Shown: piece after piece, positions 15,719 to 20,745 of the stretch
How the letters are laid out: each line of letters starts with the position of its first letter
Position numbering within the stretch: the first letter of the stretch is position 1
Origin: a virus
Virus record (IMG/VR): IMGVR_UViG_3300008448_000823
Span: 1 to 20,790 of that record
Strand: one strand, 5' to 3'
DNA: 20,790 bases
Translations under genes and position numbers: made by a program
The notes under the pieces: model-generated
What the model was told of the DNA's origin: nothing
Database searches by the model: none
Seen by the model: the letters and a program-made list of their open reading frames with translations, nothing else

Positions 15719-16387
15719 TCACGTCCTCCGCCGGCGCAAATCCGGCCCAGGTGTTTCAGCGACGCGCGAAAAGCGCGCATCCGACAGCCGGGACTCTACC
15801 CTGTCCCCGTATCGCTGGAAAAGCGCGCGCGTCGTCAAATTAGTCGTGATGACCGTTCGATGGCCGCGATTGAACCGCAGTTCCACCAGGTCCCCCAGTT
15901 CGCGCGCGGACCAATCCGTGGATTCCCGGCCCAGGTCGTCCACCACCAGCAGCTTGGACGCGGCGGCCTTCGGCCGTAGTTCGTCCCAGCCGGCCACGCG
16001 ACACTCCGCGGCGGACAGCCACACGCCGGCGTGGTGGTACTCCGCCAGCGCCCAGGTGGCCGCGAAGGACTTCCCACGGCCGGTGGGGCCGGCCAGGACT
16101 AGGACGCGCGCGGTTTGCTCCGTCAAGAACAGTTCCACGGCTTGGGCGGCGGCGGCGCTTCCAGGGTGGCCTTCGACGCGGGGACAGTGGCCGATGGCCT
16201 CCACGGCCGCAGCTGTCGCCTCCGGGTCCAGTGCGCCGGCGGCGCGGAGCCGGTTCCGGCGGCGCTCTAGGTGCTGGGCGCGCGCTTCCGCCTCCAGCTG
16301 GTCCGCCTGGGCCACCACGTCCAGGCTGGCCGTGGCGCGATGGCGGAGCGCGTCCAGCCACGCGCGGGGATTGGTTCCGTCCATCAT
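15719..16387 (-). CDS. DnaC-like AAA+ helicase loader
   Basis: A 222-residue ATPase. Walker A is GPTGRGKS (residues 100-107), Walker B LLVVDD (146-151), sensor I TVITTN ending at N183, and the arginine-finger motif SRL at 199-201 (R200). This set and the short size fit DnaC/DnaI/IstB-type loaders. The N-terminal 95 residues (AEARAQHLERRRNRLRAAGA, then HCPRVEGHPGSAA) would contact the host replicative helicase. It should place the host DnaB on the phage origin, the job lambda P does by a different fold. ATG 16387 overlaps the methyltransferase stop (ATGA) with GGGGTGAAGC upstream. An IstB-like transposition role is unlikely since no transposase is near. Confidence 0.9.
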   Translation of the reverse strand: MMDGTNPRAWLDALRHRATASLDVVAQADQLEAEARAQHLERRRNRLRAAGALDPEATAAAVEAIGHCPRVEGHPGSAAAAQAVELFLTEQTARVLVLAGPTGRGKSFAATWALAEYHHAGVWLSAAECRVAGWDELRPKAAASKLLVVDDLGRESTDWSARELGDLVELRFNRGHRTVITTNLTTRALFQRYGDRVESRLSDARFSRVAETPGPDLRRRRT

Positions 16388-18060: not shown

Positions 18061-18623
18061 GGCGTCCCCCGATTCAGCGCCATCTGGAGCGCGGCCACGT
18101 CCCGCTTCAGCTGGTTCCGCTCCGCCGTCATGGCCTCCAGGCGCTTCTCCAGCTTTTCGATGTGTCGAACCGCGGCCTGGGTTTCCTTCACCTGGCGCGC
18201 CAGGGCCGTCCCCCATTCCTCCGCGGCCGGTAGGTATCGCTCCAGTTCGACGTGGAGCGCGTCCCGCGCGGCCAGCGCGTCGTCCCGCTCCAGCTGGGCC
18301 GCCTTCAGTTTCCCCACGGTTTCCTCCACACGATGCCACGCCAGCGCGTTCATGTTTTCCGCGTACTCCGTCCGCCGCTGGTACTCCGCCATGGCCACCA
18401 CCGCGTCCCGGCTTTCCTGAACCAGCGCGCCCAGGTGGAGCCGCGCCGCCATGATGAACCGCGCGTCCCGGAGCGCCTGGCGCTCCGTCGCGGTGTTCTG
18501 GGTGCTGGCCACGTAGAACTGGCCCTCCACGTGTTCCGCGGCCGGTTCAGGCCGGAACGTCCAGGGTCCAGGTGTCGCCAGGCGCTCCAGGCGCTCCAGC
18601 TTTCGGATTTGCTTGTCCGTCAT
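18057..18623 (-). CDS. Ead/Ea22-like coiled-coil protein
   Basis: A 188-residue protein starting at ATG 18623 (MTDKQIRKLERL), which overlaps the replication gene stop as ATGA and follows CGGAGCGAAGC. ATPGPW (residues 16-21) and DARFIMAARLHLGALV (53-68) are the hallmark motifs of small phage proteins of the Ead/Ea22-like type. Residues about 95-185 are a coiled coil (KAAQLERDDALAARDALHVE, HIEKLEKRLEAMTAERNQLK). The function of this family is unknown. A similar coiled coil is found at the C-terminus of the next gene product, the methyltransferase, so the two proteins might pair or share ancestry. That is inference. Confidence 0.8.
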   Translation of the reverse strand: MTDKQIRKLERLERLATPGPWTFRPEPAAEHVEGQFYVASTQNTATERQALRDARFIMAARLHLGALVQESRDAVVAMAEYQRRTEYAENMNALAWHRVEETVGKLKAAQLERDDALAARDALHVELERYLPAAEEWGTALARQVKETQAAVRHIEKLEKRLEAMTAERNQLKRDVAALQMALNRGTP

Positions 18624-19630
18624 GCTTCGCTCCGTTCGGCCGTTTCGTGGCCGTCCCGCCGCGCGAAATGCGCGGACCATTCATCCTCTATCCCGTGAAC
18701 CACCGGCCCACGCTTCACCGGCCGCTTGGCGTCAAGGTACGCCAGGCCGGCCTCCACCTTCTGGTCATTCCGCCACAACAGTTCCGGGTCCAGGTACAGC
18801 TTCCCGCCATCGTTCTGGCCGGTGTGGAAGCCGCTCCGAAGATACCCCTGGATGGACCGGCCCAGGTCCTCCACGGACCAGGTGGCCAGCCGGCGCTGGA
18901 GTAGTTCCCCCCGGCTCCGGACCCACCGTGGACGAAGGCCCAGCGGGGCCACCGCGGCCAGGTACGCTTCCCACACTCTGGCCGCGTCCGTCCCGGCATC
19001 CGGACCGGCGGGAGGCCGGCGGCCGCGTTTGGCCGCTGGCGCGTCCGGAGCGGCTGGACCCTCCACGGACCCGTCCGGGGTGGCGTTCGTGCGTCCTGGG
19101 CGAAGCGCGGGCCGTTCCTGGGCCATCGCCACCGGAGCGGTCCCGGCGCTGGGCGCCTCCGGAGCCGGCGGGGTGGTGTCCTCCAGGGCCGCCAGGATGG
19201 CCAGCGCGTCCGGGTCCCCCGAAATCACGTCCGCGTCCGTTGGGGTGGGGTTTGTCTTGAGCGGAGCGAAAGACAAAGGGGGAGAAGTACTTAAATCTTC
19301 TCTATAAGGAACGCGCGTGGGCGCGCGACCCTCCGCGTCACGCGGATTGTCACGGTTTTGAGCGTGACACCCTACCGCGTCACGCGGACTGTCACGCTTT
19401 TCACCGTGACGCGTCACGCGGACCGTCACGGTTTCCGGCGTGACGCGGGACCGCTCCCGGCGGCGGCGGGACCGCTCCCGGTCCGCCTCCCGGCGGCGCG
19501 CTTCCCTGGCCGCGGCGCCATCGTCCGGGAGCGCCACGCCGGCCTCCGCCAACGCCTGGCGGAGCGTTGCCAGCGCCTGGGCGGCGGCCTGATACGCGGC
19601 CGCCAGCTGCTGCTGTTCGCGCTCCGTCAC
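18620..19630 (-). CDS. Replisome-organiser-like protein with embedded origin
   Basis: A 336-residue protein starting at GTG 19630 (GTGA overlap). Residues 1-30 are helical, 41-62 very basic (AREARRREADRERSRRRRER). Residues 63-99 are encoded by three DNA iterons and 102-132 by the AT-rich block, and 100-215 are a Pro/Ala-rich linker. Residues 217-301 (AARVWEAYLAAVAPLG, then WSVEDLGRSIQGYLRSGFHT, GQNDGGKLYLDPELLWRNDQ) match the C-terminal domain of phage replication-initiation proteins. It probably binds the origin and recruits the helicase loader encoded downstream, a lambda O-like role. No clear winged-helix was found at the N-terminus, so the DNA-binding part is uncertain. It could alternatively be a helicase-recruiting accessory. 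Confidence 0.78.
   Translation of the reverse strand: MTEREQQQLAAAYQAAAQALATLRQALAEAGVALPDDGAAAREARRREADRERSRRRRERSRVTPETVTVRVTRHGEKRDSPRDAVGCHAQNRDNPRDAEGRAPTRVPYREDLSTSPPLSFAPLKTNPTPTDADVISGDPDALAILAALEDTTPPAPEAPSAGTAPVAMAQERPALRPGRTNATPDGSVEGPAAPDAPAAKRGRRPPAGPDAGTDAARVWEAYLAAVAPLGLRPRWVRSRGELLQRRLATWSVEDLGRSIQGYLRSGFHTGQNDGGKLYLDPELLWRNDQKVEAGLAYLDAKRPVKRGPVVHGIEDEWSAHFARRDGHETAERSEA
18626..18642 (-). promoter_or_regulatory. Recurrent translation-start element (copy 1)
   Basis: The 17-nt sequence CGGCCGAACGGAGCGAA on the minus strand ends 2 nt before ATG 18623. It is identical to the element before the gene starting at 20726, and its GGAGCGA core serves as ribosome binding site. Here it also encodes the last residues of the replication protein. 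Confidence 0.6.
19251..19308. other. AT-rich block with two inverted repeats, candidate unwinding element
   Basis: In a genome of about two-thirds GC, 19282-19308 is strikingly AT-rich (it includes TACTTAAAT and TCTATAAGG). It holds GAGAAG-tacttaaat-CTTCTC (19282-19302). Beside it, TTTGTCTT (19251-19258) pairs perfectly with AAGACAAA (19270-19277) across an 11-nt loop. It lies 26 nt from the iterons on the side downstream in the gene, as the AT-rich region does in lambda ori. The role as duplex unwinding element is inferred. Confidence 0.65.
19334..19444. repeat. Three 35-bp iterons, candidate replication origin
   Basis: Copies lie at 19334-19368, 19376-19410 and 19410-19444. All begin CGCGTCACGCGGA, have GTCACG at positions 16-21 and end in CGTGAC; 28 of 35 positions are identical in all three. 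Each unit has three GTCACG-type half-sites, two in direct and one in inverted orientation (GTCACG-8 nt-CGTGAC). They are within the replication gene, next to an AT-rich block. This is the layout of initiator-binding iterons. Confidence 0.8.
19445..19481. repeat. Two 16-bp direct repeats beside the iterons
   Basis: GCGGGACCGCTCCCGG occurs at 19445-19460 and 19466-19481 (21-nt period). Each is itself partly self-complementary (CGGGA...TCCCG). They encode the Arg-rich stretch of the replication protein, so codon bias (Arg/Ser runs) could explain them; the immediate contact with the last iteron makes an accessory origin element possible. Confidence 0.5.
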
Positions 19631-20348: not shown

Positions 20349-20726
20349 TCACAGTCCCTTCAGCGTTTCCAGCGCCACCGTGGTGGCGTACCGCGCGCGC
20401 GCCAGCTTCTGGTTCAGCAGCGCGCGGCCGGCCACGTTCCCGGTGTACGCCTCCAGCTGGGCGAACACTTCCGCTTCGGCGGCGCGCGCGCTCCGGAGCG
20501 CGGCCACCGCGCGGTCATGCGCCAGGACCCACAGCTGGCGCTCCTCCGCTTCCGCCTCCATCCACGCGTCATGCGCCGCGGCGCGGTCCGCCTCCGTGCC
20601 GAAGGCGCGCGCGTCCTCAAAGGCGTCCCGAAAGCTGGCCAGCTTGGACGCTCCAGCGGTTTCGGCCAGCAGCGCGTCCAGGTCCTGGTCAGCGGTGGTG
20701 GTGGTGGTCGCGGTGGTGATGTCCAT
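20349..20726 (-). CDS. Helical Ala-rich protein of unknown function
   Basis: A 125-residue protein starting at ATG 20726 (MDITTATTTTTADQDLDALL) with CGGAGCGAAAC directly upstream. After a Thr-rich start it is nearly all helix, rich in Ala, Glu and Arg (KLASFRDAFEDARAFGTEAD, AAHDAWMEAEAEERQLWVLA, AVAALRSARAAEAEVFAQLE), so a coiled coil or helical bundle is likely. No family was recognised. A terminator follows it, so it may belong to a transcription unit separate from the replication genes. Confidence 0.75.
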   Translation of the reverse strand: MDITTATTTTTADQDLDALLAETAGASKLASFRDAFEDARAFGTEADRAAAHDAWMEAEAEERQLWVLAHDRAVAALRSARAAEAEVFAQLEAYTGNVAGRALLNQKLARARYATTVALETLKGL

Positions 20727-20728
20727 GT

Positions 20729-20745
20729 TTCGCTCCGTTCGGCCG
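20729..20745 (-). promoter_or_regulatory. Recurrent translation-start element (copy 2)
   Basis: The minus-strand sequence CGGCCGAACGGAGCGAA ends 2 nt before ATG 20726 and matches 17 of 17 bases with the element ahead of 18623. The remaining bases to the window edge (20746-20790) show no recognisable gene end or promoter, only a 6-bp inverted repeat (CCGTGT at 20760-20765, ACACGG at 20785-20790). Confidence 0.6.

Follow-up and report, generated by a model that had tools for sequence, protein, structure and literature searches.

Whether the cluster of GTCACG-type repeats lying inside a replication gene of this virus serves as a replication origin was the question raised by the locus. The window (the whole stretch of DNA analyzed, 20,790 bases) is a virus record in IMG/VR with its genes on the minus strand. 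It was assigned to a tailed phage because it encodes a large terminase, a portal protein (P22/SU10-like) and a capsid protein (SU10-like); among the phage records listed, the best identity of the large terminase was at most about 26%. Judged from sequence, the array is very probably (roughly 0.85) an iteron origin situated inside the gene of its own initiator and bound by that initiator. The array, 19334-19444, comprises three units of 35 nt:

19334-19368, minus strand: gene-distal iteron unit, nearest the AT-rich region, with three GTCACG half-sites
19376-19410, minus strand: middle iteron unit, with three GTCACG half-sites
19410-19444, minus strand: gene-proximal iteron unit, with three GTCACG half-sites, in a frame that differs from that of the other two units

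The initial annotation had described three 35-bp repeats with 28 of 35 positions invariant and three GTCACG-type half-sites in each, and both the coordinates and the geometry proved exact. Every unit reads GTCACG-N6-GTCACG-N8-CGTGAC, the spacers being constant in length and variable in sequence; the mixture of direct and inverted half-sites and the unlikeness to lambda iterons, also claimed at the outset, were borne out. The middle and gene-proximal units overlap by one base (19410). From one unit to the next the start moves by 42 and then by 34 nt; the first step preserves the reading frame and the second, not being divisible by 3, shifts it, so that the third unit is read in another frame from the first two. 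The resulting peptides are VT-rich in one frame (VTVRVT) and RD-rich in the other (KRDSPRDA, NRDNPRDA).

Nine GTCACG/CGTGAC sites fall within the array, and the record as a whole has few. In 300 dinucleotide shuffles of the whole record the maximum was 4 sites per 115 nt, which ruled out a chance cluster. When the codons were shuffled synonymously, with the protein kept and codons drawn from the initiator gene's own usage, the mean was 2.5 sites and the maximum 7. Nine or more sites were reached in 0 of 20,000 recodings, indicating that selection acts on the DNA.

The array lies about 190-300 nt inside a gene with the following features:

18620-19630, minus strand: replication initiator gene (336 aa; phrog_16167 in PHROG), with a GTG start overlapping the stop codon of the upstream ORF
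18749-19036, minus strand: codons of the C-terminal domain, which is common to other phage initiators (phrog_16167)
19448-19516, minus strand: codons of a predicted basic helix, aa 39-61, AREARRREADRERSRRRRERSR, a candidate DNA-binding element (AlphaFold2 and motif comparison)

The earlier description of this gene as replisome-organizer-like was supported by a weak match of aa 199-294 to the 'replication initiation protein' family phrog_16167 (E 0.0056), and by a match of its homologue in contig L002 to the same family at 1.2e-9. AlphaFold2 predicted an N-terminal helix pair, aa 3-29 and the basic helix aa 39-61, in a block with pLDDT of about 64-90; the model was poor beyond residue about 61-66. 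Searches of Pfam and NCBIfam detected no winged helix in the initiator and no match to Phage_rep_O (PF04492/TIGR01610), a family that these libraries do detect in L010. The N-terminal domain DUF1376 (PF07120) was not matched in the initiator, nor was any bZIP profile in Pfam at E 1; the likeness to bZIP proteins is only a resemblance, of the basic helix and of the TGAC core of the half-site. A structure search with the poor initiator model returned nothing (best E 2.9), and a sequence search of solved structures nothing convincing. Because no winged-helix domain is detectable, DNA contact would be made through the basic helix at aa 39-61.

Further features were located downstream of the array in gene direction, within the initiator gene and beyond it:

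19302-19315, minus strand: block of 14 nt at the border of the AT-rich stretch, CGCGTTCCTTATAG on the gene strand, which recurs unchanged in L002 in another frame
19251-19310, minus strand: AT-rich stretch, candidate DNA unwinding element, 42% GC versus about 68%
15719-16387, minus strand: DnaC-like helicase loader gene (phrog_50, E 8.1e-15; phrog_3277, 1.7e-13)

An AT-rich region had been expected by analogy with lambda. Indeed, the 60 nt of lowest GC in the entire 20.8-kb record begin about 25 nt past the array, downstream in the direction of the gene. The proposed DnaC-like helicase loader was likewise recovered, by its match to the PHROG family of that name. Between initiator and loader lies a gene read from its sequence as a Dcm-like C5 cytosine methyltransferase (18060-16384, minus strand), the ORF of which continues into a coiled-coil-like extension. 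A 22-nt sequence (leader CGGCCGAACGGAGCGAARCATG) occurs at 18621-18642 and 20724-20745 with 95% identity, each copy covering the start codon of a different minus-strand ORF; it was read as a shared translation or expression leader. GC skew gave no usable turn in the window or in L002. Because the record is a 20.8-kb fragment, a second origin could lie in the missing part.

If the array is an origin of this kind, homologous genes would be expected to carry repeats at the same point, as had been suggested earlier. This was tested in L002, a 43,475-base contig and the sole one found by a scan with the window's loader. The L002 loader is 61% identical to that of the window and its gene adjoins the initiator gene; the L002 initiator is 39% identical to the window's over its whole length. 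At the same point of the gene, L002 keeps a three-unit GTKAC array, followed by a lowest-GC stretch and then the loader; the outcome named at the outset as refuting the idea, a relative lacking the repeats, was thus not seen. The array has 12 sites in about 130 nt, each unit consisting of one inverted half-site and, 13-14 bp on, direct CGTKAC half-sites 10-11 bp apart. Synonymous recoding reached the observed number of sites in 0 of 20,000 trials, and among CGTKAC clusters in the 43.5 kb of L002 the array was the densest (12 sites; 4 in the runner-up). The 60 nt of lowest GC in L002, tied with one other place, start about 20 nt beyond the array. The longest word common to the two initiator genes is the 14-nt block, which stands at the start of both AT-rich stretches in different reading frames.

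L002 supplied the only recognizable full-length relative of the initiator. No close relatives were found in phage records or viral contigs, and a profile built from the two initiators added none among viruses; against 794 bacterial genomes the same profile found only two relatives of the C-terminal domain, L247 and L248. The L247 gene (L247:1072-2130, in a bacterial genome) combines the same C-terminal domain with an N-terminus resembling a winged helix, and its mid-gene repeat is another one, of the CAGAATC type; its sequence suggests that the DNA-binding part and the repeats were swapped together. L248 has GTTAC sites and a basic stretch similar to that of the window.

From these features we infer binding by the window initiator, melting, helicase loading and origin activity, in the following predicted sequence. 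The initiator would bind the nine GTGAC half-sites, arranged in three units with a spacing of roughly one helical turn, and the bound protein would pack into a nucleoprotein array resembling the O-some of lambda. The nucleoprotein array would strain and melt the AT-rich stretch, beginning near CGCGTTCCTTATAG. The C-terminal domain of the initiator would then recruit the phage's DnaC-like loader, which would load the DnaB helicase of the host onto the melted strand.

The geometry of the window's units was found well outside this phage. A 19-base pattern from the window matched six viral contigs, and in L005, L006 and L008 it falls in quite different initiator-type genes; those of L008 and L006 have matches among the primosomal and replication initiation families of PHROG. 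The full GTCACG-N6-GTCACG-N8-CGTGAC geometry matched 44 contigs in IMG/VR, several of them near-duplicates, versus 1 for a scrambled hexamer of the same composition and geometry. About 29 of the 44 matches lie in or just before initiator-type genes, as judged by reading the overlapping genes, and about 19 of these are in families with a PHROG replication match; of the remainder, three fall in genes resembling small terminases and about ten in structural or other genes, with two unclear. In L022 (6532-6563) and L052 (8143-8174) the GTGAC array was observed just upstream of an initiator-like gene and not inside it. In bacterial and archaeal genomes the same scan returned 97 matches, which were scattered.

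In 17 initiator genes, 68 of the 86 pairs of neighboring half-sites with the same orientation have a spacing of 9-12 bp; only for the window and L002 does this count include the pattern used in the search. Proteins aligned along the same face of the duplex would be expected to give such spacing. At 12 of 20 loci the cluster contains the AT minimum (within 1.5 kb) or is followed by it at most about 150 nt downstream, with a rough binomial probability of 6e-8 assuming a 10% target. The initial annotation had suggested an undescribed iteron type. The sequence is indeed unlike that of lambda's iterons, and a literature search found no description of GTGAC repeats in phage origins or of DUF1376 replication; the type is nevertheless found beyond this phage, since many unrelated initiator genes contain these half-sites one helical turn apart.

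Repeats of other sequences were common in related genes. Most members of a non-redundant set of 39 DUF1376 initiators, selected by protein similarity, have clustered mid-gene repeats of other sequences, the hexamer scores being uncorrected for the many words tested. Among the DUF1376 initiators L161-L240, it is common for a hexamer specific to the family (AACCAA, GTTGAA, CAAGAA and others) to be clustered in mid-gene, and their sequences suggest many undescribed in-gene origins. An array of repeats within the initiator gene thus seems to be a frequent arrangement, of which the GTGAC class would be one version.

A basic stretch (score 10 or more) stands beside the array in 17 of 18 GTGAC-array proteins versus 5 of 47 proteins without a GTGAC array, in a sample of proteins that are not independent. 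A possible explanation, which we put forward tentatively and regard as doubtful, is that many unrelated initiators, that of the window included, recognize GTGAC-core half-sites one helical turn apart via a short, basic helix (approximate consensus R-x-x-R-[Y/H/R/W]-R-[E/D]-R), and that helix and cognate array travel between initiators as a module, perhaps even into small terminases. Two DUF1376 initiators, L228 and L232, have basic stretches (RMKRHRDRRA and RMRRYRERRA, respectively) yet carry GTTGCA rather than GTGAC arrays. Only one of the 39 DUF1376 initiators has a GTGAC array, and the other carriers of the motif have other repeats, which weakens the claim that the basic stretch alone dictates GTGAC. 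Given the non-independent sample and the carriers with GTTGCA, the association is a lead only.

Other functions of the array were weighed against the same data. Arrays of half-sites also act as operators, and inverted pairs with an 8-bp spacer look like operators for a dimer, so that the initiator or a repressor might regulate the replication operon here while replication starts elsewhere; autoregulation and origin function could also coexist. The array is nevertheless about 190-300 nt into the gene, far from its start, an AT-rich minimum follows it in both the window and L002, and the pattern recurs in other initiator genes, leaving the operator reading very unlikely. A role for the folded single strand, whether as an mRNA structure controlling translation or as a DNA hairpin giving a primosome or single-strand signal, would draw on the predicted RNA folding of the array, which far exceeds that of shuffles in the window (z -5.9) and in L002 (z -5.0). 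Any array with inverted half-sites folds well, however, the L002 repeats are mainly direct, and the predicted folds of the two arrays differ; a same-orientation spacing of 9-12 bp across unrelated genes suits protein on duplex DNA. The strong folding leaves this role a small probability, and we regard it as very unlikely.

The three matches in small terminase-like genes would fit a packaging (pac) or partition site that came to lie in the initiator gene by chance. These genes (L020:1594-2124, L035:6702-7229 and L038:1169-1702) have GTGAC clusters of 7-8 sites adjoining a basic stretch at the N-terminus (RARRYRRHR) that resembles the one in the initiators; the L020 gene matches the PHROG terminase small subunit, and the clusters are possibly a packaging-site counterpart. 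Against such a site in the window, GTGAC clusters are absent from its probable small terminase gene (12619-11852), the window showed no partition genes, and most of the geometry matches are held by initiator-type genes; a pac or partition function is thus extremely improbable. Equally remote is the proposal that the repeats merely mirror a repetitive, disordered protein linker. The array does code for a stretch predicted to be disordered, but its units are read in two frames and none of the 20,000 synonymous recodings reached nine sites, and the frame and recoding tests together contradict a repetitive linker.

An iteron origin within the initiator gene, the reading preferred here, would be of use beyond this phage. 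Hardly any environmental phage has a mapped origin, and the array is a concrete candidate origin in a metagenomic one. A repeat class common to many unrelated initiators would allow sequence-based prediction of origins together with the proteins that bind them. Should binding prove to run through the basic helix, phage initiators would have a type of DNA-binding element of which the literature searched gave no description.

Several known systems share parts of this arrangement. As at iteron plasmid origins of the RepA/Rep type, repeats bound by the initiator (in the window, by prediction) lie beside an AT-rich unwinding region. Plasmid iterons generally lie outside the rep gene, and no Rep-type protein was found in the window. 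The C-terminal (phrog_16167) or N-terminal (DUF1376) domains of initiators from a Flyfo siphovirus, Marinomonas phage P12026, Vibrio phage VvAW1, Thalassomonas phage BA3, Bordetella phage IFTN2 and others are related to those considered here, and most of these genes have clustered mid-gene repeats. Their repeats differ from those of the window (ATCCCC, GGAACAGG, AGCTAAA, CCAGAA and others), with no GTGAC array, and their basic stretches score low. In Pseudomonas phage MD8, repeats were reported inside the gene of an O-like protein and taken as a lambda-like origin (PMC8508860); the window's repeats are likewise inside the initiator gene, a likeness of placement.

The closest parallel in layout is with lambda and the Stx phages, whose origin occupies the central part of gene O and is made up of four or six iterons together with an AT-rich tract (PMC7466680). 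As in ori-lambda/O and the Stx lambdoid phages, the window has repeats and an AT-rich tract within the initiator gene and a helicase loader gene in the same direction (PMC7466680). Unlike lambda, with four iterons, or the Stx phages, with six (PMC7466680), the window has three units with nine GTCACG half-sites of another sequence and mixed orientation. Its initiator, unlike lambda O, has neither Phage_rep_O nor a detectable winged helix, and its C-terminal domain belongs to another PHROG. Since it matches lambda O in neither DNA-binding domain nor iterons, the system is best described as lambda-like in its predicted working and not of the O family.
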